Shown here piece by piece: positions 6,984 through 22,063 of a stretch of 22,063 nucleotides of DNA. The stretch is taken from positions 1-22,063 of the IMG/VR virus record IMGVR_UViG_3300031626_001263, one strand, 5' to 3'. Position 1 is the stretch's first letter, and each line of letters begins with the position of its first letter. A model generated the notes under the pieces. That model was not told the DNA's origin. It did not search any database and saw nothing but the letters and a program-made list of their open reading frames with translations. Made by a program: the position numbers and the translations under genes. The stretch is from a virus.

Positions 6984-7011
6984 ATTATAAATTATAAAAT
7001 GAATTTATCAA
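6984..7011 (-). promoter_or_regulatory. Sigma-70-type promoter for the DUF366/clamp-loader/co-chaperonin operon
   Basis: On the minus strand: -35 TTGATA at 7011-7006, 16-base spacer, -10 TATAAT at 6989-6984, then six bases to the ATG at 6977. The -35 lies within the last codons of the upstream GT17 gene. No ribosome binding site fits, so a leaderless transcript is expected. Confidence 0.7.
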
Positions 7012-7855
7012 GCTTATTTTTATTATTAATTATATATTCTGGGTAGGTATTGTCTATTTCTACCTTTTTTAGTGAACCTTGCCTTCCAAAAATATCTTGC
7101 AAATTATCTACAGTATTGTCAAGATTATCTTTAATATCGTCTCTATTTATTTCTTGATGACTATAGCTAATAATTTTTTCTTTTACCGCTTCTTTACCAC
7201 CCATAAAACTAAAATGCCAACCACCGTTATCAACTAAACTGTCCCATTTAAAATTTCTTGTATCATTTAAGCAAACATTTTTAATAGTTTCATAACTAGT
7301 GAGGGTTGTACCTTTCCAATTATTTTCTTTAAAAACATTAAAATAATAATAGTACATATTTTGGAGCAATCTGTAAATTTTATCTTTATTAAAAAATTTA
7401 TTTAAATTTTCAATTACCTTTGGGTTAGGTATTTCATCTATATCTGACATTAAGATAATATCTTCATCGTTACATTTACCATACCCAACCCGTAACATTT
7501 CTCTATGTAGGAAATCTCTACACCAATTCTTTTCATTTTTAGGAAAATGTGTTGCATTTTTAAAAAATGTTAATACTTTATTTGTTTCTTCTTCTTTAAA
7601 ATTTTCTGGATTGTCAATAAATTTAACATCATTAAAGTCATCAAATTCTAAATCATGCTTAATATAAATTATTTTATCTGAATATTTTTTAAATAAATCT
7701 CTATTTTTTTCAAATATATACTCTTTCTTTAGACCGGAATGAGTTATATTGAATTCTGAAATAATAAAATAGTCTACTACATTGTCTAAGATTTTTAATC
7801 TTATATCAAGTAAATCGAGTTCGTTAAAAAATATAAATGTATCGTAAATTTTCAT
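6992..7855 (-). CDS. Glycosyltransferase family 17 protein, 287 aa
   Basis: The N-terminus YDTFIFFNELDLLDIRL is diagnostic of GT17 (named for eukaryotic beta-1,4-mannosyl-glycoprotein N-acetylglucosaminyltransferase but widespread in viruses and bacterial surface-glycan clusters). It is followed by FIISEFNITHSG, WCRDFLHREMLRVG, an acidic ILMSDIDEIPNPKVI (DxD-type metal/nucleotide-sugar site) and a Tyr-rich YYYYFNVF. The C-terminal part holds GWHFSFMGG, also typical. The start overlaps the upstream GT11-like gene by four bases. It is the last gene of the sugar cassette. The transferred sugar and acceptor cannot be told from sequence. Confidence 0.92.
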   Translation of the reverse strand: MKIYDTFIFFNELDLLDIRLKILDNVVDYFIISEFNITHSGLKKEYIFEKNRDLFKKYSDKIIYIKHDLEFDDFNDVKFIDNPENFKEEETNKVLTFFKNATHFPKNEKNWCRDFLHREMLRVGYGKCNDEDIILMSDIDEIPNPKVIENLNKFFNKDKIYRLLQNMYYYYFNVFKENNWKGTTLTSYETIKNVCLNDTRNFKWDSLVDNGGWHFSFMGGKEAVKEKIISYSHQEINRDDIKDNLDNTVDNLQDIFGRQGSLKKVEIDNTYPEYIINNKNKLDKFIL

Positions 7856-8772
7856 AGTTGTATGTTATGTTCTTCAAAGAATTTATGTTTGAAATTTTCA
7901 TATTCAACTTTACATTGACCGTAGTCATAAAAATTATTATTAGTATCTTGATACAACCAATCTTTAGTTAAGGCTTCTCCTTGAGACCAAAAGCCATCAG
8001 AAATATTATGCCTTGCCCAATATTTAGGAGCTATACAAAATTTATTCTTAGAACTCGTCCAAACAGCAAACCATGCAAAGGAAGTGTTAGATAGAATAGT
8101 ATAATACGCATTATGTATAACTGAATAATCCCACTCTAATGTTTCATGCCTTACTTCAAAGTCTGGAAACCATTCTTGACTTGTATTTACATCGTCCGTA
8201 ATAACTACAAATTTCATATTAGAATTTATCTTCCTCATTTTTTCTATTGCATTGTCCCAATAGTTTTTTTGTAAAAATAGATCATGTTGTGGTATATACT
8301 CTGGACCACCTCTTAGATTTAAAATGCATGTATCCTTATTTGAGTACTTACTTTCATAATAATCCTCATTAACGTGTAATAATTTTTTAATATCTTCCCT
8401 GCGGTGATCTATATATTGTTCAGCTTGCATAGTACCATCTATTTTTGTATTGTCTGGCAATCTAAAAAAGTTAGTATCAATAGGATTTATATAACAATTA
8501 TACTTCGGATGGAATACGTTCTTTTCTTTATAATAATGTTTTATATTTTCAGGTAACGATGTAGGGGGTCCGCCTTCTGGCCCTGAACCACCATTAACTG
8601 TAATAGTTTCTAACTCCTCTTTAATGTTAGGAAATAAATTTAAACCTTTAAACTTATTAGGACTTTGTATACCAAATTTATATCCTAAATCTTTAGCTAA
8701 TGTTCTGGTAACCGTATAACACCAGATTTGATTGCCTAACCCCTGCCCGTTATATATTTCAGTTATTAACAT
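7852..8772 (-). CDS. GT11-like (alpha-1,2-fucosyltransferase-like) glycosyltransferase, 306 aa
   Basis: The N-terminal GQGLGNQIWCYTVTRTLA matches the nucleotide-sugar-binding opening of GT11 enzymes (GGLGNQxFQ). CILNLRGGPEYI sits where GT11 has its H-x-R-x-G-D motif, and SNTSFAWFAVW followed by IAPKYWAR matches the conserved end. The R-G-G without the usual His and Asp departs from the family, so donor specificity could differ from fucose. I chose the ATG at 8772: it leaves a 14-base overlap with the upstream gene and starts right before the first strand. An upstream ATG at 8814 adds residues lying inside the neighbouring gene. It is paralogous to the GT11 gene at 14486. Confidence 0.82.
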   Translation of the reverse strand: MLITEIYNGQGLGNQIWCYTVTRTLAKDLGYKFGIQSPNKFKGLNLFPNIKEELETITVNGGSGPEGGPPTSLPENIKHYYKEKNVFHPKYNCYINPIDTNFFRLPDNTKIDGTMQAEQYIDHRREDIKKLLHVNEDYYESKYSNKDTCILNLRGGPEYIPQHDLFLQKNYWDNAIEKMRKINSNMKFVVITDDVNTSQEWFPDFEVRHETLEWDYSVIHNAYYTILSNTSFAWFAVWTSSKNKFCIAPKYWARHNISDGFWSQGEALTKDWLYQDTNNNFYDYGQCKVEYENFKHKFFEEHNIQL

Positions 8773-9430
8773 AATATTTAGAATTCTTACCATGAAAACC
8801 AAATGGGTTTTCAATATCTTTTATTTCTTCAACTGGACACTCATGGGAGAAATATTTAGCTATATCAGTAGAAGCAAATTTAATGCCTTCTTTTTCTAAT
8901 AAATGCCTATTATGGCAAGTTAAAAAACCATCTTCATTCCAATAACCATAATATTGTTTCCACTCTAAATTTAATTTAGATGGTAGCTCTAAAAGCTTTT
9001 TACTTCTGAATGAAAACCCTCCATTACCAACTCTAATTAAATTACCGAAAGGATCTCTATATGAGATTTTATCGCTATCATCTGGTACTGGCCATATAGC
9101 ACCAATATAATCATAATTATAAAAATCATCTAACCAACTAGTTGGGTTAACTACATACCCATCATCCTGTACTAATAATACAAATTCTGTATTAATATAA
9201 TCTTTTAAATCGTATAAGATAAATCGATTATATTCTACATAATCTAATTCTTTATCTAACTTAATTATTTGGACCTCTGTATTTTCAGTCTCTGCATTTT
9301 TCGGAGTTAAAAGCTTTACTTCTCCAAAAGTAATACCTTTCATCGAGTGTTTGATAGCATTATAAGCCTCTTGAATTCTAACCCCGGCCACTGCCACTAA
9401 AGTTACGTTTGGTAAATTTATTTTATTCAT
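8759..9430 (-). CDS. DUF5672-type glycosyltransferase-like protein, 223 aa
   Basis: The motifs fit the DUF5672 group found in glycan clusters: NVTLVAVAGVR at the start, FVLLVQDDGYVVNPTSW (about 102-118, with the acidic QDD), YDYIGAIWP, VGNGGFSFRSKKLLE, NEDGFLTCHNRH and a final NPFGFHG. The GT-A-like layout suggests a glycosyltransferase, but the activity of this family is not established to my knowledge. Its start overlaps the RmlD-like reductase by eight bases and its end overlaps the GT11-like gene, so it is embedded in the sugar operon. Confidence 0.85.
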   Translation of the reverse strand: MNKINLPNVTLVAVAGVRIQEAYNAIKHSMKGITFGEVKLLTPKNAETENTEVQIIKLDKELDYVEYNRFILYDLKDYINTEFVLLVQDDGYVVNPTSWLDDFYNYDYIGAIWPVPDDSDKISYRDPFGNLIRVGNGGFSFRSKKLLELPSKLNLEWKQYYGYWNEDGFLTCHNRHLLEKEGIKFASTDIAKYFSHECPVEEIKDIENPFGFHGKNSKYYVNN

Positions 9431-10241
9431 GTATATTAAAATTTTTAAGATCTATTATTTGTTGATAGATCGTTTTCGTTATTGGTGATTTATAAATTGA
9501 AGATAAATTTCTAAAACAATTATTATCAGTTGAAACTTCTTCAATTATTAAATTTAATTTATATACTTTATTAATATATTCTACTAAGTCTAATTTTGAA
9601 ACCGTATCAGGTGAATAAAAATGACGTACACCTTGCCAAGATATATTATCTTCAATCATTATTAAAACTTGTTTGCTTAATTCAAGACAAGTCACCCCGT
9701 TCCATAAATGATTTTTAAACCCCATCACCTTTTGACCTTTCTGTGATATAACCCACTCAAGTAAAGATTTTTTATTATTTTTTTCTTCACCAATAATAGA
9801 TGTTCTAATAATAGTAATATTTTCAGGTTCACCGAGTGATTTACTTTTACCATATATATCGTTACATGTATGGTTGCAATTTTCGTCTAATAATATATCT
9901 AAACTTCTATCACCATCATACACACAATCAGTTGTAAAATGTATTATATTAGTATTATATTTTTCTTTTATAGCTGATAAAAAATAGGGTAACAAACTAT
10001 TAATTTTTACCATTTCTATTTCATCATAATTTCGTTGTTTAATAATACCAGAAGCGTTTAGAATATAGTCACTGCTTGTAATACCTAAATCATCGATATA
10101 TTTTTCTAAAGTTTCAAATGTAATTTTAGAAAGATCTAAATCGTTTCTTGTTGATGGTATAACTTCGTGATTAACAGAAAGATATTTTGTTAAGTATGTA
10201 CCTAACATACCATTTGAACCTAATATTAGAATTTTACCCAT
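9423..10241 (-). CDS. RmlD-like sugar-nucleotide reductase (extended SDR), 272 aa
   Basis: The NAD(P)-binding motif GSNGMLG (8-14) is followed by NDLDLS, LNASGIIKQ, FTTDCVYDGD and the catalytic YGKSKSLGE (Y-x-x-x-K), in the order seen in dTDP-4-dehydrorhamnose reductases and related reductases. In such enzymes the 4-keto sugar made by a dehydratase is reduced to the final nucleotide sugar. The dehydratase-like gene lies directly upstream and overlaps by eight bases, so the two probably act in sequence. RmlA, RmlB and RmlC are absent from the window, so the product need not be rhamnose; an N-acetylated 6-deoxy sugar is equally possible. Confidence 0.85.
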   Translation of the reverse strand: MGKILILGSNGMLGTYLTKYLSVNHEVIPSTRNDLDLSKITFETLEKYIDDLGITSSDYILNASGIIKQRNYDEIEMVKINSLLPYFLSAIKEKYNTNIIHFTTDCVYDGDRSLDILLDENCNHTCNDIYGKSKSLGEPENITIIRTSIIGEEKNNKKSLLEWVISQKGQKVMGFKNHLWNGVTCLELSKQVLIMIEDNISWQGVRHFYSPDTVSKLDLVEYINKVYKLNLIIEEVSTDNNCFRNLSSIYKSPITKTIYQQIIDLKNFNIHE

Positions 10242-11163
10242 TAAAAAAATTCCTTTCCTCCAAATAATTATAAAGTTCTTGTTTACTTAAGCAATAATCT
10301 TTAGACGAATATTCTGTTGCTTCAAAGTTTACATTGTTAAATTCCTTTTTCGGGTGTAATAAGTATAAATTATCTTTCTCTATATATTCCATTCTTCTTT
10401 TTTCTTCATTTGAAGCCATAATTTCATGTATTTTTTCACCAGTTCTTAAAGAAGTTATTTCATATTTTAATCCAAATTTTTCTTTATAAATTTGAAATAA
10501 ATCTTTTATTTTAAATGAACGTGCCATTGGTATTACACAGACATTGCTATACTTGGTTGATTTAAAAATTAAATCAATAGCCTCGTCAATGTCTAATAAA
10601 AATCTTGTCATTTCAGAACCATATAACTGCAACTTATTTTTATTTTTAATAAAATTCCAAATTAAAGGTATGATTGAACCAGTAGAGTTGGTAACATTTC
10701 CATAAATTGCCGTTGTTAGTTTGCAATTAGATTTACCTGCTATAAATCCTTCACCAGCGACATACTTCATAGCTCCGTATATAGTGGTAGCTGCTCTACT
10801 CTTATCTGTCGAAATAAAACAACCAGATTTAAAATTATTTTCTTCAGCAGCTATTCTAGAATTAAATGCCCCATCAATAATAATTTTCGAAGCCTCTTCA
10901 TAATTTTCATCACAAGCTTCTATCTGCTTTAAAGATGCAGCAAAAATACCTACTGTATGGTCTCTAGATTTTCTAAGTAATAAATCTCTATTTCTTATAT
11001 CACCTACAACGAAATTAACTTTAGGAAATTCTTTCTTAATATAATAATGTTTAGCTTCATCACGTGAGTAAACAGTTATTTCATTATTTTTATATAGCCG
11101 TTTAATTAAATTTTTACCTAGGTAGCCAGCACCACCAGTAATAAAAATTTTTTCATTTTTCAT
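10234..11163 (-). CDS. UDP-N-acetylglucosamine 4,6-dehydratase/epimerase-like SDR (CapE/PseB type), 309 aa
   Basis: The NAD(P) motif GGAGYLG (10-16) is followed by VYSRDEAKHY, VGDIRNRD, AASLKQIEACDENYEEA, ISTDKSRAATTIYGAMKYVA and TRFLLDIDEAIDLI, then LRTGEKIHEIM. This is the signature of the CapD/CapE/PseB group, which starts synthesis of 6-deoxy-N-acetyl sugars by 4,6-dehydration of UDP-GlcNAc. Tyr and Lys of Y-G-A-M-K are present, so the enzyme looks intact. It is the first gene behind an internal promoter in the sugar cassette and is coupled to the reductase that would complete the pathway. The exact stereochemistry cannot be told from sequence. Confidence 0.87.
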   Translation of the reverse strand: MKNEKIFITGGAGYLGKNLIKRLYKNNEITVYSRDEAKHYYIKKEFPKVNFVVGDIRNRDLLLRKSRDHTVGIFAASLKQIEACDENYEEASKIIIDGAFNSRIAAEENNFKSGCFISTDKSRAATTIYGAMKYVAGEGFIAGKSNCKLTTAIYGNVTNSTGSIIPLIWNFIKNKNKLQLYGSEMTRFLLDIDEAIDLIFKSTKYSNVCVIPMARSFKIKDLFQIYKEKFGLKYEITSLRTGEKIHEIMASNEEKRRMEYIEKDNLYLLHPKKEFNNVNFEATEYSSKDYCLSKQELYNYLEERNFFNG

Positions 11164-11168
11164 ATCTA

Positions 11169-11196
11169 ATTATAGCTAATATTTTGCAGTTATCAA
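11169..11196 (-). promoter_or_regulatory. Sigma-70-type promoter inside the sugar cassette
   Basis: On the minus strand: -35 TTGATA at 11196-11191, 16-base spacer, -10 TATAAT at 11174-11169, then five bases to the ATG at 11163. It lies in the only real gap (42 bases) of the cassette and would drive the dehydratase, reductase and three glycosyltransferase-like genes as a separate, probably leaderless transcript. Confidence 0.72.
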
Positions 11197-11205
11197 GCAT
11201 TAACA

Positions 11206-11946
11206 TTACTTGTATTTCTCATTAACTTCCCAGTCACAATTAAAAATTAACCATAAACATCTTTCAATCATATGAGCTTCTCCAATAACTATATCATAAC
11301 TTAAAATTCTTCTTATTTCTTCATAGAATTTTTTACTATGTTTTAACATATAAGATTTGGGTATAATATAACTACCACCCGGGGCAAACCTAAACCAATT
11401 TACCTTTTTAGGTGTTTTATACATTTCTTTTAAAAATTCTTCAACATATGTATAATATTTACCCGGGTGCTTATGATGGTGTAAATACCAACTATCGTTT
11501 CTTTCACAATAACTATTATCTGGACCGTAATTATTAGTTGTACCGTTTATTCTCCAACTATCATCTGTAAAATCTTGAAGTTCTGTAAAAGTATTATTAT
11601 TACAATTCTTCATAAAAAACTCTTCAGTACATGTACCATTTGATAATCTATTACCATCCTCATCTAGCCTTGGTGTACCTGTATCTTTGGGTGAGTAAAT
11701 GCAAGCTCTGCAAAATAAAGTATTTTCTGGTAAATTATTGTAATTTTCTACTATAAAATCAAATATATCATATATGTTTTGACCTACATTTTTTTGATGT
11801 TTGATTTTATGTGATTGCTCAAATCTATGATATCTATCATAAATTAAATAGTTATCACTTAATTTATCAACCCACGAATCTTCTATATTCTCAGGTAACC
11901 AATTATAATCGCTAACTACTAAAAAATTATTTTTTATATATTTCAT
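11206..11946 (-). CDS. DUF3431-like protein, putative glycosyltransferase-associated, 246 aa
   Basis: The C-terminal half fits the pattern I recall for DUF3431: RFAPGGSYIIPKSYMLKHSK, then KFYEEIRRIL and a final IGEAHMIERCLWLIFN. The N-terminal half has IYDRYHRF and ENLPENTLFCRACIY-like segments and several cysteines (for example NGTCTEEFFMKNC). The family occurs beside glycosyltransferases in sugar clusters, but its activity is unknown to me. The ATG at 11946 shares one base with the stop codon of the epimerase gene upstream, so translation is probably coupled. No signal peptide or membrane helix is seen. Confidence 0.72.
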   Translation of the reverse strand: MKYIKNNFLVVSDYNWLPENIEDSWVDKLSDNYLIYDRYHRFEQSHKIKHQKNVGQNIYDIFDFIVENYNNLPENTLFCRACIYSPKDTGTPRLDEDGNRLSNGTCTEEFFMKNCNNNTFTELQDFTDDSWRINGTTNNYGPDNSYCERNDSWYLHHHKHPGKYYTYVEEFLKEMYKTPKKVNWFRFAPGGSYIIPKSYMLKHSKKFYEEIRRILSYDIVIGEAHMIERCLWLIFNCDWEVNEKYK

Positions 11947-12941
11947 TATTTCCAGTATTCGTAAATACCCTCAGTAACTTCATAATTCATTAACTTTGTC
12001 TCTCTATCAGGCTGTTCTTTAGCCCAAGTAAACATACTATCAATTAATTTATATAGGTCTGTTTTATCTTCAAATTTTAAAAGTTCTTTTGCTTTTTTAT
12101 GATCAGAATATGCATGTTTTACCTCATGTCTTGGTTCTTTATATTCAATCTCAACGTGCAACTGATGTTTATTCATTGCAATATCTTGTACAATATTTGC
12201 AACCTCATTAATTGTAAAATATTTATCTGCACCAATATTGAAAATTTCACCATTATGTTCTGATATTAATTTTTCAAAAGGCTCCATATAATATTGTATA
12301 TCTGAAAAAGCTCTTGTCTGTTCACCATCTCCGTAAATTAAAATAGGTTCACCGTTTAAAGCTTTTTTGATAAAGATACCAATAACATTTCTATATTTAT
12401 CCCAAATATTTTGATATATACCTAACACATTATGTGGCCGGACGATATTATACATAAGGTCAAATTGTTTATGTGCTGTAATTATATCCATTTCAACTGC
12501 ATATTTTGCTATACCATAAGGATCAATTGGGGACTGTAGTAGGTCTTCAGTAAAGGGTGGGGTTTGGTTACCATAAACTGCCATAGAGGATGTAAAAATT
12601 AATTTACTTTTACTTTTTATACATTCATTAATTATATTAATAGAAGCTAATACATTATTAGTATAGTTAAAATTTCTAATAAAAGGGGAAAGACCTTCAG
12701 CAGCATAAGCTGCAAAATGATAAACTACTTCTGGTTCATAAAGTTCAAAAATATCTTTTAAACCTTGTATATCTTTTTCTAAATTTAGATTACAAAATTT
12801 AAAATTTTCATGCTCAGGTAAAAAATCTTTATAACCACCGAAAAAATTATCTATACCTATAATTTTATGACCTTTTGATAATAAATGTCTTGATAAATGA
12901 CAACCAAGAAGTCCAGCTGCTCCAGTAATAACAATATTCAT
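11946..12941 (-). CDS. NAD-dependent nucleotide-sugar epimerase/dehydratase (GalE-like extended SDR), 331 aa
   Basis: The Rossmann motif GAAGLLG (7-13) is followed by DNFFGGYKDFL, YHFAAYAAEG, FTSSMAVYGNQTPPF and the catalytic PYGIAKYAVE (Y-x-x-x-K). The C-terminal part has RPHNVLGIYQNIWDKYRNV, GDGEQTRAFSDI and FNIGADKYFTI, in the order typical of UDP-glucose/UDP-hexose 4-epimerases and related dehydratases. It likely makes a nucleotide sugar for the neighbouring transferases. All catalytic residues are visible (S-S-M, Y, K). Whether it acts on UDP-glucose, UDP-GlcNAc or another sugar cannot be decided here. Confidence 0.9.
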   Translation of the reverse strand: MNIVITGAAGLLGCHLSRHLLSKGHKIIGIDNFFGGYKDFLPEHENFKFCNLNLEKDIQGLKDIFELYEPEVVYHFAAYAAEGLSPFIRNFNYTNNVLASINIINECIKSKSKLIFTSSMAVYGNQTPPFTEDLLQSPIDPYGIAKYAVEMDIITAHKQFDLMYNIVRPHNVLGIYQNIWDKYRNVIGIFIKKALNGEPILIYGDGEQTRAFSDIQYYMEPFEKLISEHNGEIFNIGADKYFTINEVANIVQDIAMNKHQLHVEIEYKEPRHEVKHAYSDHKKAKELLKFEDKTDLYKLIDSMFTWAKEQPDRETKLMNYEVTEGIYEYWK

Positions 12942-12949
12942 AAGATTAT

Positions 12950-13675
12950 TTAACCTTTAAATTTCAATTTACAATACTGAATTTCTCTAGATATTAGACC
13001 TGGGTCCGCTCCTTCATTATTACTAATCTGACCGGGGTGTTGTCTAATTACAATACCATGATAATTTATAATTCCGGGGTATCCAAATTTATCAGCCATT
13101 TGTTTATAGAAATCGCAATCCATTAACATTACTAATTTTTCATCAAAAAATATTTTTTCATCTCTATTTCTTAAAGAAATAATACTAGGTCCGCTCATTG
13201 TATTTTCACCTAGGTAAATTCTTTCTGTATATGTCGGAGTAACAATTCTAGAAGCAGTTTTAACATCACGGGTTTCATAAAAGCAACTTGCTGCCCATTC
13301 ATAATTATTTTCTTTATAAAAATCATATATGGTCTGAAGAGTATTTTTATTACGTACAAAATCATCTTGAAATAAAATTTGTATAATTTTTTTCTGACAT
13401 CTATTTAACACTCTATTTGCATTAGGTGATAAACCTTTATTATATGGTCGATCATCTAAAGGTATATCTTCACTTTTAAAATATTTTATATCTAAAATAC
13501 TATTATAACCATCTAACATTTTTTTAATATTATCATTATCACTATCATCACTAATAATAACTTCAAAATTTTTAAATGTTTGTTTTTCTAATTGCTTTAA
13601 AGAGAATTTTATAAATTCTGCTCCTTCACCATTCTTATCGAATGCTGGTATTGCTATTGATATTCCACTTTTCAT
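12950..13675 (-). CDS. Family 2 glycosyltransferase, 241 aa
   Basis: The GT-A start GISIAIPAFDKNGEG is followed by LKQLEKQTFKNFEVIISDDS (about 27-46, nucleotide binding), a spacer with NANRVLNRCQ, and the acidic IIQILFQDDFVRN in the place of the DxD motif. The C-terminal half contains MSGPSIISLRNRD and KLVMLMDCDFYKQMAD, typical of acceptor-side residues in GT2. A Shine-Dalgarno-like GGGAAG lies about seven bases before the ATG, within the end of the upstream gene. The donor and acceptor sugars are unknown. Confidence 0.9.
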   Translation of the reverse strand: MKSGISIAIPAFDKNGEGAEFIKFSLKQLEKQTFKNFEVIISDDSDNDNIKKMLDGYNSILDIKYFKSEDIPLDDRPYNKGLSPNANRVLNRCQKKIIQILFQDDFVRNKNTLQTIYDFYKENNYEWAASCFYETRDVKTASRIVTPTYTERIYLGENTMSGPSIISLRNRDEKIFFDEKLVMLMDCDFYKQMADKFGYPGIINYHGIVIRQHPGQISNNEGADPGLISREIQYCKLKFKG

Positions 13676-13679
13676 AAAT

Positions 13680-14489
13680 TTACGCTTCCCACGTTTTTAT
13701 ATATTCTTTAAGTTCTTTATCAGAGCAATTGCCTACAAACTCACTATGATTGTAATTATTTTGATACATGTTATGTCTCTCTCTTATTGTATTTTCGTGA
13801 GGAAAATGCCAAGCTATAGCATTATGATCTTTAACTCTATCCCACGTATAACCTAATCTCTTAACTCGATTAATAATTTCATCATCTTCAAATCCCCAAG
13901 CAACAAAATTTTGATTATAACCGTTAAATTTAATAAATCGTTCTTTATTATACATAACCATTCCACCTTTACTACCGGGGTGGGCTACCAAAAAGTTATC
14001 AGTTTCATGATATGGTACGGGTTTCAGTTCTTGAATTTTATCATTTAATAAATTCATTTCATATTTACTAGTGAACTTATCCATTAAATGTTGCTTAAGG
14101 TGAACAAACATTCCATTGTAAGGGTGTAAAATGCCTAACTTATCATCTTTTTCGAACATTTCCTTACCTTTAAGTAGATATAACGGGTCGATAAAAACAT
14201 CAGTATCACCGGCGATTAGGTAATTAGATTCTAAATTTCTCATACCTTTATTAAAAGCTAATGTCCTGTGATATAACCCGTCGTTTTTCATGAATAGGAT
14301 TTTACAACCATATTTTTCATGTAATTCTTTTAATGATGCATCCGGTTCTTTATCATCATTTACTATTACTATTTCTAAATTTTCAGAAAAAGTCCTATAA
14401 AAAGATAACACACATTTTAAGTTGCGTAATCTATCTTCTACATCTTTTCTAAAGTGAATAATTAAACCTATATCTTTTAAATCTGTCAT
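13680..14489 (-). CDS. GT-A glycosyltransferase (family 2 / galactosyltransferase C-domain type), 269 aa
   Basis: The early part has IGLIIHFRKDVEDRLRNL and NLEIVIVNDDKEPD, then YHRTLAFNKGMRNLESNYLI and AGDTDVFIDP (DxD motif). The late part has SKGGMVMYNKERF and FVAWGFEDDEIINRVKRLG, the hallmark of the C-terminal galactosyltransferase domain (W-G-x-E-D-D/E-x-x). Such enzymes add hexoses to growing surface glycans. The ATG overlaps the stop of the GT11 gene upstream by four bases (ATGA). It appears intact. Confidence 0.9.
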   Translation of the reverse strand: MTDLKDIGLIIHFRKDVEDRLRNLKCVLSFYRTFSENLEIVIVNDDKEPDASLKELHEKYGCKILFMKNDGLYHRTLAFNKGMRNLESNYLIAGDTDVFIDPLYLLKGKEMFEKDDKLGILHPYNGMFVHLKQHLMDKFTSKYEMNLLNDKIQELKPVPYHETDNFLVAHPGSKGGMVMYNKERFIKFNGYNQNFVAWGFEDDEIINRVKRLGYTWDRVKDHNAIAWHFPHENTIRERHNMYQNNYNHSEFVGNCSDKELKEYIKTWEA

Positions 14490-15247
14490 ACTGTTATAAT
14501 TTTAAATTCTTTCCTGTAAAGTCCTTCTGTATTTGTATTATCATTAAACCATCTAGATGGGGCAACAATTATATCCTTTTTGTTAAAATATGATGCAAAC
14601 CATGACAAGGTACTGTTAGATATAATTAAATTTTTACATCTTGTTAAGAATAAAAAATCTCCTATTTCATTACCACCGTCTATAATTTTAACCTCACCTG
14701 GCAATAACTGGTTAGCGTAATTTTTGTCATCGGTAACCGCATAAAGCTTACTATTTTTAAATAACCCGATACTATCTTTATAATATTGCTGATTAATAAT
14801 ATTATGCTTTGAGTATATTTTATAATCTCCGCCTCTAACATGAATACCAACGGTATCGTCATCTATAAAATCATCAATTTGTTCTATTTTAGATTTTAAA
14901 GAGCTAAAACTAATAATATCTAAATCTTCTTTATCAAAATAATAATCAGATTGAAAATAACCTTCTAATATTACATTACCATCCATAAATGGTATTTCAT
15001 TATACTCGAAAGATGGTTCATTATATAAATTAAAGCTACTATCTATTTTATTTTCTGGTATATTTTGAAATAAATTATTTTTATATGTACTTGGTGTATT
15101 ACCTTGACTAGCATGGAATTTGTTATTGTAATCTATAAAAAATTCTTTACCGTGTACCTTTGCATAATTATAACCAGCTAATATTTGAAATAGTTGATTA
15201 CCTAACCCGCCTTTTAAATTTACTGTTACTTTATATTTTGTTTGCAT
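14486..15247 (-). CDS. GT11 alpha-1,2-fucosyltransferase-like protein, 253 aa
   Basis: The protein has the full GT11 layout: NLKGGLGNQLFQILAGYNYA at the start, VILEGYFQSDYYF, TVGIHVRGGDY (the H-x-R-x-G-D motif that binds the GDP moiety), YAVTDD and FLFLTRCKNLIISNSTLSWF, ending with IVAPSRWF. These enzymes move fucose from GDP-fucose to a galactose 2-OH in O-antigen or capsule. GDP-fucose synthesis genes are not in the window, so the host may supply the donor. It overlaps the end of the upstream GT2 gene by 22 bases. It is a second, more canonical GT11 member in addition to the gene at 7852. Confidence 0.92.
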   Translation of the reverse strand: MQTKYKVTVNLKGGLGNQLFQILAGYNYAKVHGKEFFIDYNNKFHASQGNTPSTYKNNLFQNIPENKIDSSFNLYNEPSFEYNEIPFMDGNVILEGYFQSDYYFDKEDLDIISFSSLKSKIEQIDDFIDDDTVGIHVRGGDYKIYSKHNIINQQYYKDSIGLFKNSKLYAVTDDKNYANQLLPGEVKIIDGGNEIGDFLFLTRCKNLIISNSTLSWFASYFNKKDIIVAPSRWFNDNTNTEGLYRKEFKIITV

Positions 15248-16020
15248 TTTTTTAAAAAGTTAACTATATCACTCACTGAGGAATCAGGTACACAACCTTG
15301 CCAAGCTGGTAAATAACCATGCTTATTTTTAAATATTTCAGCACTTTCCATTATTTTTTGTTGCCAATTATCACCTCTTCTAATAGAAGAATTATCTTCA
15401 CTACAAGCTTGTTCTTCAATATAATCTAGACTATTAGCAATATCAGACCACCACCAATATGGTGTACTGTAACCAGCCTTAGCTAAACTATAAGAATGCT
15501 CGACATGTTCAAAATTATTTTTATCAAAATTTTCATCAAATAAGCCTACCTTTTTTAAACACTCTTTTGTATAAAAGCAAACTGCACCAACGCAGTGTTG
15601 ATTTAATGCTAATTTAAAATCACCATAATCTATAATTTTTCGTGGTTTTGGTTCACCTTTACTAATATTACCTTTATTAGCTGGTCCATGGTAACCAAAC
15701 ATCATATGATGAATACCTGTTTTTTTATAAGCATCAATATAAGCTTTAAAAGCATTATCTTTAAACATCATATCATCCTCAACTATAAAAATATAATCGC
15801 ATCCAGTTTTCAATAAATGTTTAAATAATTTATTTTTACTTTTACATACACCAATATTTTTTTTATTATTAATGATATTATAACCAGCGTTTTGTAAAGG
15901 TACATTACCATCATTTACTATTAATAATTCATCATACCATTCTTTATTAATACTTTTTAAACATTTATCTAAAAAATTATTCCTATTACATGTAACAATA
16001 CCTATTCCTATCTTTGACAT
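15226..16020 (-). CDS. Family 2 glycosyltransferase, 264 aa, first gene of the sugar cassette
   Basis: The start KIGIGIVTCNRNNFLDKCL and ELLIVNDGN are typical of GT2, followed by NNKKNIGVCKSKN, CDYIFIVEDDMMF (DxD-type EDD) and a C-terminal QHCVGAVCFYTKECLKKVG with GLFDENF. I chose the ATG at 16020 rather than the longer frame from 16098. The extra 26 residues are hydrophobic low-complexity sequence read across the divergent promoter region, and this ATG lies seven bases after a clear -10 box. It heads the cassette. Acceptor and donor are unknown. Confidence 0.9.
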   Translation of the reverse strand: MSKIGIGIVTCNRNNFLDKCLKSINKEWYDELLIVNDGNVPLQNAGYNIINNKKNIGVCKSKNKLFKHLLKTGCDYIFIVEDDMMFKDNAFKAYIDAYKKTGIHHMMFGYHGPANKGNISKGEPKPRKIIDYGDFKLALNQHCVGAVCFYTKECLKKVGLFDENFDKNNFEHVEHSYSLAKAGYSTPYWWWSDIANSLDYIEEQACSEDNSSIRRGDNWQQKIMESAEIFKNKHGYLPAWQGCVPDSSVSDIVNFLKKCKQNIK

Positions 16021-16027
16021 TATATAT

Positions 16028-16055
16028 ATTTTATAATAAATAATTAATATGTCAA
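16028..16055 (-). promoter_or_regulatory. Consensus sigma-70-type promoter of the sugar cassette
   Basis: On the minus strand: -35 TTGACA at 16055-16050 (perfect consensus), 16-base spacer, -10 TAAAAT at 16033-16028, then seven bases to the ATG at 16020. The -35 is formed by the first codons (ATGTCAA) of the divergent gene at 16049, so coding and promoter sequence are shared. The transcript should be leaderless. Confidence 0.7.
16035..16042 (+). promoter_or_regulatory. Late-promoter-like word AATAAATA before the tail-type gene
   Basis: AATAAATA, one base from the T4 late word TATAAATA, ends six bases before the ATG at 16049. A TTGACA at 16014-16019 lies 17 bases before TAAATA; it is made by the first codons of the divergent gene, mirroring the opposite promoter. 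Either element, or both, could be used. Confidence 0.4.
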
Positions 16056-16414
16056 CCGAAATAAGTATTAAACAATTACCTGTAGTAACTGAAATCAATA
16101 ATGATGATTTGTTATTAGTTCAAACACCAAATGCAACTAATACATTAAAATTTGAAAATTTTGTTATCGGTTTAGAAAATACTACATTTGCCCCTACAAT
16201 TAGCTCTAGTGCTACTAAACTTGCTTATTTAAGTTCAGTTTTTGATAATACCTTCTTCTTTGCTCCGGTAGAAGATGGTCCTAATATATTAACCAATAAT
16301 ACAACTAGTACTACATTATCAGTAATTGATACTGACAAGATACCAATTCAGATTACATCAGGTGGTCAGAAAAGGACATATTATTTCTTATTAGAGCGTG
16401 GCGCGACTGTTTAA
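16049..16414 (+). CDS. Small virion/tail-fibre-type structural protein, 121 aa
   Basis: The opening ISIKQLPVVTEINNDDLLLV, then a short strand and LKFENFV, is the recurrent beginning of phage tail-fibre and related structural proteins (I-K/S-x-L-P ... D-D-L/F-x-(V/I) ... (K/V)-x-F-x-(N/D)-F). The rest is Thr/Ser-rich beta sequence, for example TTFAPTISSSATKLAYLSSV. There is no signal or membrane segment. It may be a fibre adaptor or a truncated fibre; the usual large fibre body is absent. It overlaps the 3' end of the kinase-like gene by four bases and has a short terminator-like hairpin just beyond. Confidence 0.7.
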   Translation: MSTEISIKQLPVVTEINNDDLLLVQTPNATNTLKFENFVIGLENTTFAPTISSSATKLAYLSSVFDNTFFFAPVEDGPNILTNNTTSTTLSVIDTDKIPIQITSGGQKRTYYFLLERGATV

Positions 16415-17229: not shown

Positions 17230-17940
17230 ATGATTACGTTTGATGAAAAGTCCCATACTTACAAGTGTAGTAAAACCGGTAGAGAATTAATATCGGCAAC
17301 TACTTTAATAGGTAAGTATAAGAAGCCATTTGATAAAATGGAAAATGCAACTCGAGTAGCTAATAGAGAAGGTTTAGATGTCGACTTTGTATTAGATATG
17401 TGGGAGACGGAAAAGAATAGAGCTTGTGATTACGGTACTAGTATTCATAAGGTCATGGAAGATTATTTGACCGAAGGGGTTGAAGAAGAAGAGCATGAAT
17501 CTTTGTATTCTTCTTTTAATAAGTGGAAGCATATCTTTAAGAAGTTTCCTACTTTATTATGTGAAGAAAAATTACATGATTTAGATAATTTTATTGCTGG
17601 TACAGCAGATTTAATTTACGAAAATAAAACCCATTTCATGGTTGGTGATTTTAAGACTAATAAAGCGTTTAATTTCTTCTCTCAATATAATGAGTTTATG
17701 CTTAAACCGATGGATCATTTAAGTGTATGTGAATTCAATACATATGCGTTACAATTATCTTTATATGGTTATTTACATGAAAAGAGTTCAGGCAAAAAGT
17801 GTACCGGTTGTGTTATATTCTATAAGGATAAAGAAACTAATAAGTTTTACCCAATCAGGGTTAACTATATGAAGAATGAAATTATTGCATTAATTGAAGA
17901 TTACAATAATCCCAATTCACTATCTTCAAAAATTGCTTAA
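17230..17940 (+). CDS. PD-(D/E)XK nuclease, RecB/Cas4-like, 236 aa
   Basis: The layout fits the PDDEXK_1 group. It has ISATTLIGKY near the start, GTSIHKVMEDYL with H73, GTADLIY with D127, then VGDFKTNK with D140-x-K142, and LQLSLYGYL with Q175-x-x-x-Y179, the RecB-type motif V. Such nucleases process DNA ends in recombination or degrade DNA. The four Cys cluster of Cas4-type Fe-S nucleases is absent (cysteines at 13, 66, 111, 167, 191 and 194 lack its spacing). It has its own promoter and converges with the superoxide dismutase gene, overlapping it by 59 bases tail to tail. Confidence 0.85.
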   Translation: MITFDEKSHTYKCSKTGRELISATTLIGKYKKPFDKMENATRVANREGLDVDFVLDMWETEKNRACDYGTSIHKVMEDYLTEGVEEEEHESLYSSFNKWKHIFKKFPTLLCEEKLHDLDNFIAGTADLIYENKTHFMVGDFKTNKAFNFFSQYNEFMLKPMDHLSVCEFNTYALQLSLYGYLHEKSSGKKCTGCVIFYKDKETNKFYPIRVNYMKNEIIALIEDYNNPNSLSSKIA

Positions 17941-18505
17941 TATACTTTTCTCTATTAGGACCATACTTTTTATAGTAAGCATGCTCCCATACATCTATAC
18001 CAAGTAGTATAGTTACGTCTGAATACATTAAAGGGTTATCTTGGTTGTTGGTAGGTATTAATTCTAATTTATTACCTTTTTTAACTAACCATAACCAACC
18101 TGAACCGAAATGACTTAAAGCTTCTTCAACAAATATAGCTTTAAAATTATCAAAACTCTTATATTGTTTTTCAATTAACTCTCTAATAGGTCCAGAAATT
18201 GTTTTTCTATCTGGTGACATCATATTCCAGAATAACTGGTGATTATACGCGCCCCCTGCATTATTACGAATTGCATCTTTTTTAGATTTAGCTTTTTTAA
18301 CTATTGACAATAAATCTTGCTTATTAGTAGCTGGTAATGCTGCATTTAATTTTTTAACATAACCTTTATAGTGTTTGTTAAAATGCAAGTTCATTGTTTC
18401 GGCATCTATACTAGGCTCTAAAGCATCTAAAGCATATGGAAGCTTTATAGCTTTAATACCACCCACTTCTTCTAAAATTAAATCTGCTATTTTGTTATAT
18501 TCCAT
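17882..18505 (-). CDS. sodA: Mn-type superoxide dismutase with capsid-targeting-like N-terminal leader, 207 aa
   Basis: The enzyme converts superoxide to oxygen and hydrogen peroxide. Metal ligands are all present: H41 (in NLHFNKH), H89 (in NHQLFW), D171 and H175 (in DVWEHAYY). Mn-type markers are NNAGG before H89 and Gln155 in NNQDNPLM, where Fe enzymes differ. Relative to E. coli SodA it has about 14 extra N-terminal residues, MEYNKIADLILEE plus V, which resemble leaders of other virion-like proteins in the window. Cleavage after Glu13 would leave nearly the usual start before LPYALDALEP. The C-terminus ends soon after the conserved VNWD. A TAAATA word lies seven bases before the ATG. The host gene is its likely source, but the leader looks phage-made. 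Confidence 0.93.
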   Translation of the reverse strand: MEYNKIADLILEEVGGIKAIKLPYALDALEPSIDAETMNLHFNKHYKGYVKKLNAALPATNKQDLLSIVKKAKSKKDAIRNNAGGAYNHQLFWNMMSPDRKTISGPIRELIEKQYKSFDNFKAIFVEEALSHFGSGWLWLVKKGNKLELIPTNNQDNPLMYSDVTILLGIDVWEHAYYKKYGPNREKYIKQFLKIVNWDYCNLQLMQ

Positions 18506-20458: not shown

Positions 20459-20486
20459 TATTTAATAGAAGTTTATAAAATGTCAT
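20459..20486 (-). promoter_or_regulatory. Candidate promoter of the virion-protein run
   Basis: On the minus strand: ATGACA at 20486-20481, 16-base spacer, TAAATA at 20464-20459, then five bases to the GTG at 20453. The -35-like box is one base from consensus; the -10 resembles the late word. The geometry equals that of the sigma-70-type promoters, but the match is weak. Confidence 0.4.
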
Positions 20487-20967
20487 GTTTGGTCTTATTA
20501 CAATGTTACTTACAACACTCGGTGCAACGGGTATGGGTTCAATGCTCAAAATCGTTGGTGGTCTCTTCGCTGGTATTTCAGATGCTAAAGAAGCAAAACA
20601 TAAAAGAGAGCTTATTAGAGATATGCAGCTTCAAAAAGCTGATCTCGAATTTCAAAAAGCCGTCTTCGGTGACATGGATAAAGACACATCTGTTTTTACC
20701 AGGGGTACTCGTAGGCTCATTGCTCTTATCGGGATGTGTAACTTTTTCGTCATCTCGGTCCTCTGCACCCTCTGGCCAGGAGTCGAGCTCGTTACCTTCA
20801 CACCCCCAGAAAACAAAGAAGCGATCAAGCTCATCTGGGGATTGGTTACTTTCCCCTCAGGAGCAGACATTACCACCTCAATTACAACGGGGCACATTGC
20901 TTTGGTATCAATCGCCACTTTGGGAGCGATAATCGGATTTTACTTTACACCTGGAGGTAAGAGGTAA
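20485..20967 (+). CDS. Holin-like protein with two to three membrane segments, 160 aa
   Basis: An N-terminal hydrophobic/Gly-rich stretch (about 2-31, GLITMLLTTLGATGMGSMLK then IVGGLFAGI) is followed by a charged helix DAKEAKHKRELIRDMQLQKA. Two further hydrophobic segments are RLIALIGMCNFFVISVLCTL (about 76-95) and HIALVSIATLGAIIGFYF (137-154). This matches the 3TM holin type seen in phages and gene-transfer agents, which opens the inner membrane at lysis. The base composition differs from its surroundings: 33 of 60 bases in 20761-20820 are G or C, and CTC codons are frequent. This suggests a recent transfer. The ATG at 20480 opens a different frame and was not chosen. Confidence 0.78.
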   Translation: MFGLITMLLTTLGATGMGSMLKIVGGLFAGISDAKEAKHKRELIRDMQLQKADLEFQKAVFGDMDKDTSVFTRGTRRLIALIGMCNFFVISVLCTLWPGVELVTFTPPENKEAIKLIWGLVTFPSGADITTSITTGHIALVSIATLGAIIGFYFTPGGKR

Positions 20968-21095: not shown

Positions 21096-22063
21096 TTACT
21101 TACTGATAGCTCTATAAACTTTATCCCAATCTTCTCCTGGATCATTATCCTTTAGATCTGCTACCCGATCTTTCATCATATTATAATAATATTCTAACTC
21201 TGTATTTTCTTTTATTGATTTATTAAGAGTATTTTCTGCTTTTAACCAGTCTCGATTTTTATAATGCTTTAAGAATGTATCATGTAGCATATAATTGAAT
21301 TGGTCAGTTAATACTGTATAAACTGTTATACCTTCTTTCTTACCCTTAACAGCAATTTTATCTAATTCTATAAATTTAAACTTATTATGTATAAGGTTAA
21401 CAGTTTCCTGACCTAATAGAATACCCACACCATATGCTTTAGTTTGACCTTCAAGTCTCGCAGCTAAATTAACTCCATCTCCTAAGCACGTGTAATCGAA
21501 TCTTTGATCTGAGCCCATATTACCGACAACAACTCTACCTGTGTTAATACCGATACCGATTGCTAATGGTTTCTTACCCTCTTCAATTAACTGTATATTA
21601 AGGTTAGTTAATTCTAATTGCATTTTTATTGCAACTTCAATTGCTTTAATACGGTGAGTTATTTGATCTTCAGGTAAAGGTGCATTCCAAAATGCCATTA
21701 AAGCATCTCCAATATATTTGTCTATTGTACCACCTGATTCCATTACGATACGAGTCATTGGTGTTAGGTATCGATTGATTAGATAAGTTAAACCTTGAGG
21801 GTTATCTTTAAACTGTTCACTAATTGTAGTAAATCCTCTTATATCTGAAAATAGTATTGTTAAGTCTTGGGTATCACCTCCAAGTTTTAACATATTAGGG
21901 TTCTTTTGTAGCTTCTTAACTATTTCAGGAGCTAGGTAATGTTCGAACTGTTTTTTAATTAACATTTTACCTTTATATTCATGTATAAATCTAAAGAATA
22001 TAGCCAACGTAAATACAATAAAAATACTATAAACAGGATATGTAAAATCGTATAATAAATTGT
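21096..22063 (-). CDS. Membrane-anchored class III adenylate/guanylate cyclase, C-terminal part
   Basis: The reading frame is open to the right edge, so the N-terminus is missing. Just inside the window lies a membrane segment (YPVYSIFIVFTLAIFFRFI, about 21984-22040). Then comes the YLAPEIVKKL linker typical of CHASE2-cyclases, and the catalytic domain. Counting from the codon at 22007, residues for catalysis are present: D55 in FSDIRGFTT and D101 in DKYIGDALMAF (metal), K97 and T173 (base recognition, with Thr typical of class IIIb), N180 and R184 in DGVNLAARLE (transition state). The enzyme should make cAMP (or cGMP) from ATP (or GTP) in the host membrane. A sensor domain such as CHASE2 probably lies outside the window. 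Confidence 0.93.
   Translation of the reverse strand, partial: NLLYDFTYPVYSIFIVFTLAIFFRFIHEYKGKMLIKKQFEHYLAPEIVKKLQKNPNMLKLGGDTQDLTILFSDIRGFTTISEQFKDNPQGLTYLINRYLTPMTRIVMESGGTIDKYIGDALMAFWNAPLPEDQITHRIKAIEVAIKMQLELTNLNIQLIEEGKKPLAIGIGINTGRVVVGNMGSDQRFDYTCLGDGVNLAARLEGQTKAYGVGILLGQETVNLIHNKFKFIELDKIAVKGKKEGITVYTVLTDQFNYMLHDTFLKHYKNRDWLKAENTLNKSIKENTELEYYYNMMKDRVADLKDNDPGEDWDKVYRAISK

Follow-up and report, generated by a model that had tools for sequence, protein, structure and literature searches.

A cluster of curli (type VIII secretion) genes with FecR and adenylate cyclase genes was published for pelagiphages in 2022 (PMC9599517), so a cyclase gene of this kind is in itself ordinary as a discovery. 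The isolates HTVC008M (AGE60353.1) and Melnitz (QZI94833.1) carry the gene, annotated as a cyclase, in the order csgF, csgG, curlin-repeat gene, FecR gene, second curlin-type gene and cyclase; CHASE2 goes unmentioned in the cluster paper. In bacteria, FecR–CHASE2 receptor adenylate cyclase units are known in Campylobacterota (PMC9239204). Like the phage genes, the units of Campylobacterota and Alphaproteobacteria comprise a CHASE2–TM–class III cyclase adjoining a FecR-domain gene, but they are otherwise surrounded by genes for adhesin-like proteins, type I secretion, TPR proteins or phosphodiesterases instead of curli. The CHASE2 receptor cyclases CyaD1, CyaD2 and CyaK of Sinorhizobium meliloti, likened to the phage proteins by description, reportedly produce cAMP in answer to a cue from the envelope. 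These chromosomally encoded enzymes raise cAMP once an outer-membrane protein (NsrA) senses a protein signal, and the output is the CRP-like Clr. CyaD1 without CHASE2 is constitutive, and the FecR gene beside cyaD1 is unnecessary for signal perception.

The DNA analysed here (the window) is a whole IMG/VR record, a linear virus fragment of 22,063 bp with no DNA-level match to sequenced phages. Its genes for a ribonucleotide reductase large subunit, a DNA helicase, an endolysin-like protein, an exonuclease and a thymidylate kinase-like protein are phage genes. A frame of 321 codons, stop-free and entered from the contig end, runs along the minus strand from 22,061 to 21,096. The contig end cuts this cyclase gene, and its 5′ part, encoding CHASE2 and TM1–TM3, falls outside. 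The features are as follows:

21096..22061, minus strand: predicted CHASE2-type class III adenylate cyclase, C-terminal 321 residues and stop (open frame, Pfam, full-length relatives)
21981..22043, minus strand: last transmembrane helix (TM4), running into the linker to the catalytic domain (family-alignment hydropathy; helix 368–400 of the AlphaFold2 model of relative L002)
21315..21872, minus strand: catalytic domain PF00211 with D73, K115, D119, T191, N198 and R202 (321-aa numbering)
21147..21293, minus strand: C-terminal helical tail (alignments and model)

The catalytic domain matches Pfam Guanylate_cyc (PF00211) with E=1.8e-25 and 90 bits (cut-off 21.9), and a phmmer comparison with the PDB gives class III cyclases of the CyaB/Cya2/CyaC type with E-values down to 1.5e-37. 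It contains the two metal-binding Asp residues (D73 and D119) and the transition-state Asn and Arg (N198 and R202) that define class III, with K115 and T191 at the substrate positions. D73, K115, D119 and R202 are invariant in 83/83 phage homologues and N198 is kept in 82/83; the T191 position is occupied by T in 77 sequences, S in five and D in one. A Lys with Thr, Ser or Asp at the purine-selecting positions is the adenylyl pattern as far as residues tell. The guanylyl cyclase Cya2 has Glu where the phages have Lys (phmmer alignment), so ATP is the predicted substrate; the Lys/Thr pair predicts an adenylyl, not a guanylyl, cyclase. The sequence-only reading had described a phage-encoded membrane cyclase of class III and CHASE2 type with its catalytic residues in place. 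This is supported, the class and the residues by the Pfam and PDB matches and the 83-homologue alignment. Its Thr173, counted from an internal TTG, corresponds to T191 when numbering starts at the contig end. The step from this Thr to class IIIb, a bicarbonate response and sensing of the carbon state is unsupported: it is one residue, Ser in most close bacterial homologues, and is by itself no evidence of a bicarbonate response. The C-terminal tail is comparatively fast in evolution; most family members end in a WD(G/K)VYRATSK-like motif, common to bacterial CHASE2 cyclases.

In the cyclase of Melnitz (L083:10912-12960), the otherwise invariant transition-state Asn is replaced by Ser, and the Thr position holds Asp. 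Such an enzyme may work less well or differently; lacking the catalytic Asn, at least one lineage may thus be weakened. The HTVC008M cyclase retains the catalytic set, with Ser where the window has Thr.

A relative is present in no fewer than 363 viral loci; with the annotated isolates and the published phage cluster, this leaves unsupported the earlier remark that cyclic-nucleotide synthesis is rarely reported in phages. In the viral relative L002, the cyclase protein is 97% identical, and the locus is colinear with positions ~15.3–22.06 kb of the window at 86–93% DNA identity. The edge of the window is therefore not misassembled host DNA, a concern that had been raised together with that of a disrupted gene; full-length homologues in the relatives are intact, the window's own 5′ half being past the record end. 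Relatives such as L002 also supply the missing upstream sequence, the window's own upstream genes lying off the contig.

Along its 682 aa, the L002 cyclase passes from TM1 through a CHASE2 domain and three further TMs to the cyclase domain, and it ends in a helical tail. A domain search gave CHASE2 (9.8e-34, residues 18–328) and Guanylate_cyc (1.4e-24, residues 427–612), numbered along the fragment scanned. The AlphaFold2 model, built from 22 sequences (mean pLDDT 86), places TM1 at 2–25, CHASE2 at 28–301, helices at 312–333, 336–361 and 368–400, the cyclase domain at 425–611 and the tail helices at 618–666. The order of CHASE2, TM helices and cyclase recurs in other relatives, the window contig ending before CHASE2. 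The ‘membrane segment’ (TM4) and ‘CHASE2-like linker’ of the sequence-only reading were thus rightly recognised, since the full-length relatives carry CHASE2 and four TM helices. Four membrane passages put CHASE2 and the cyclase on opposite sides of the membrane; judging by this topology, CHASE2 is likely periplasmic and the cyclase cytoplasmic. According to structure comparison, the catalytic domain has a close solved match in 3r5g, the isolated catalytic domain of the Pseudomonas aeruginosa adenylyl cyclase CyaB (target TM-score 0.87, 41% identity), which shares its fold and catalytic residues. Along its full length, the cyclase model is matched by a viral model annotated COG4252. The CHASE2 receptor architecture of the phage cyclase is new in this analysis.

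Codon comparisons show purifying selection on the phage cyclase, with dN/dS of 0.037 against L002, 0.050 against L003, 0.106 against L005 and 0.04–0.15 across lineages. CHASE2 and the catalytic domain are equally constrained (0.058 and 0.075, L002 against L005).

In the relatives, a phage curli/type VIII secretion module with the order csgF–csgG–curlin repeat–FecR–cyclase ends with the cyclase gene, and this linkage holds almost without exception. Scanning of viral loci with profiles built from HTVC008M and Melnitz phage proteins found csgF, csgG, curlin and FecR genes upstream, on the cyclase strand, in 56/56 viral cyclase loci with at least 3 kb of upstream sequence. In the reverse test, the cyclase was present in 37/37 viral csgG loci whose downstream sequence reached 6.5 kb or more. 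Each sample consists of the 80 nearest loci of a larger set, the cyclase sample having two isolates in addition, and near-duplicates are included, so the counts express the tightness of the linkage, not independent events. The quantified linkage in both directions is new here. Locus L078 showed no module match; its 2.8 kb of upstream sequence falls under the 3 kb threshold. Pfam matched CsgF, CsgG and FecR in L002, curlin being slightly under the cut-off. The pelagiphage cluster has a homologous cyclase and the order csgF–csgG–curlin–FecR–(curlin)–cyclase; the nearest relatives of the window differ from it in lacking the second curlin gene and in the FecR/cyclase overlap of 4 nt. Among the 56 viral cyclase loci, an overlap of this length is usual. 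The window gene is a further example of the known phage curli-linked cyclase, its own flank lying beyond the contig end. The sequence-only reading had overlooked this fixed context, which lies past the window edge. The curli–FecR–cyclase module is conserved and widespread.

Directly upstream of csgF in L002 (L002:3449-4041, plus strand), two small tandem proteins belong to one family (phrog_18771, unknown function). In loci L022, L034, L069 and L079, the curlin gene is set apart from the cyclase gene by 2–3 kb of extra DNA.

Among bacterial proteins, the closest matches found were CHASE2 cyclases of Alphaproteobacteria, at 32–36% identity. Phylogeny, previously named as a check against host cyclases, was run as a quick tree, and the phage cyclases form one group (47 rows, SH-aLRT 100) on a long branch to 61 bacterial rows, which are best matches only and nearly all alphaproteobacterial. 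A FecR-domain gene, often encoding a large adhesin-like protein with cadherin, RTX or Big domains, lies upstream in 33/66 bacterial cyclase loci, and type I secretion genes are frequent beside these adhesins. Neither csgG nor curlin was found upstream of the cyclase in any of the 66 loci. Conversely, neither FecR nor cyclase was found in 20 bacterial csgF regions, and CsgF was found in none of nine bacterial genomes carrying the cyclase; on these last two results, the idea of a bacterial curli operon with FecR or cyclase already in it was rejected. The bacterial FecR–cyclase and curli units were never found together in the sampled loci, so the phages join two bacterial units, a union of separate modules that is new here.

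In a marine alphaproteobacterial single-cell genome (L088:575-7768), a CHASE2 cyclase gene lies in one run with genes for an ABC transporter of type I secretion, an HlyD protein that carries a cNMP-binding domain at its N-terminus (PF00027, 1.2e-19) and two small cNMP-binding proteins; L085, L102, L108 and L114 are similar, with one or two of the latter. The run is possibly a cAMP-controlled secretion system, as the sharing of an operon by cyclase, secretion and cNMP-binding genes suggests that cAMP there acts on or near the secretion machine.

Taken together, the architecture and the linkage make an outside-in sensor, producing cAMP upon envelope or curli status, the most likely role. By analogy with the S. 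meliloti cyclases and the L088-type runs, the phage cyclase would respond to how the phage curli system stands in the envelope. The fuller reading, that the CHASE2–TM–cyclase encoded by the last curli-module gene is an envelope- or curli-coupled sensor making cAMP for host receptors, is favoured with some reserve. CHASE2 would likely face the periplasm and the cyclase the cytoplasm. CHASE2 could plausibly be coupled to the periplasmic FecR-domain protein, whose gene overlaps translationally with that of the cyclase, and/or to the state of the CsgG–CsgF pore and its curlin cargo. In response to the cue, the cytoplasmic domain would likely act as a homodimer and turn ATP into cAMP. Acting via host receptors, cAMP might then adapt the infected cell to the fibre or pore programme, with adhesion, aggregation, superinfection exclusion or lysis timing as candidate outcomes. 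No cNMP-binding protein (PF00027) was detected in 20 phage records, several of them fragments, so the receiver would be the host's; this absence of a detected phage cAMP receptor is new here. It weighs against the favoured reading, as do the dispensable FecR beside cyaD1 of S. meliloti and the lost Asn of Melnitz. If the sensor reading is true, infected ocean bacteria would for a time gain a new surface structure and, with it, a circuit for sensing that structure and signalling its state. Identification of the enzyme as a CHASE2 receptor cyclase, alongside a FecR partner familiar from bacterial units, turns a bare ‘AC’ annotation into a testable sensor–output model.

A more specific version is put forward tentatively: a trans-envelope cAMP checkpoint, in which the bacterial FecR–CHASE2–cyclase unit, joined to the curli unit, would let the infected cell read the presence of fibre or pore via cAMP and its own receptors, and then change adhesion, superinfection or lysis. 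Such a combination was not found in the bacterial loci sampled; if it is real, phages would encode a second-messenger circuit whose input is defined.

The sequence-only reading had proposed that the cyclase reprogrammes metabolism. According to this unlikely explanation, it raises host cAMP or cGMP apart from the curli genes, perhaps tuned by bicarbonate. An intact cyclase should indeed raise cAMP, to which K115 and T191 point, and host CRP-type regulons are generally broad, which counts in its favour. The linkage, however, is to curli and FecR, not to metabolic genes, and the conserved CHASE2 sensor and the fixed csgF–csgG–curlin–FecR linkage are left unexplained.

It is also rather improbable that the cyclase senses the pore or envelope state in order to time progeny release. 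The CsgGF pore has been proposed as a gated pinholin (PMC9004378), and the cyclase is the final gene of that module, yet the proposal does not mention the cyclase. Lysis timing as proposed for the pore is compatible with this module. No holin family matched the small membrane proteins next to the module, and their annotation as holins was rejected.

A role in counter-defence was also suggested earlier and is very unlikely; the product would then interfere with antiphage systems based on cyclic nucleotides, Pycsar or CBASS for example. PADLOC PycC models do match the cyclase domain (best 1.1e-29), but the matches do not extend beyond the class III domain that such enzymes have in common, the Lys typical of adenylyl cyclases never varies, and a membrane sensor linked to curli fits poorly; with no PF00027 effector in the 20 phage records, assignment to Pycsar (PycC) was rejected. 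That the gene is an inactive or recently acquired passenger is hardly credible: its homologues are bacterial and Melnitz has lost the Asn, but the low dN/dS across lineages and the single phage group in the tree strongly disfavour recent host acquisition or decay, the catalytic residues being invariant, the branch from the sampled bacteria long and the gene order fixed.

Convergent with the cyclase gene, a plus-strand gene (window 20485-20967) encodes a 160-aa protein with hydrophobic segments, kept in L002 and with no Pfam or PHROG match. Genes for glycosyltransferases and for nucleotide-sugar epimerases/reductases form a row on the minus strand (window 6992-16098; GT17, GT11, Polysacc_synt_2, Epimerase and RmlD matches) and suggest surface polysaccharide modification. 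An iron/manganese superoxide dismutase is also phage-encoded (window 17882-18505, minus strand; Sod_Fe_C, 1.3e-33).
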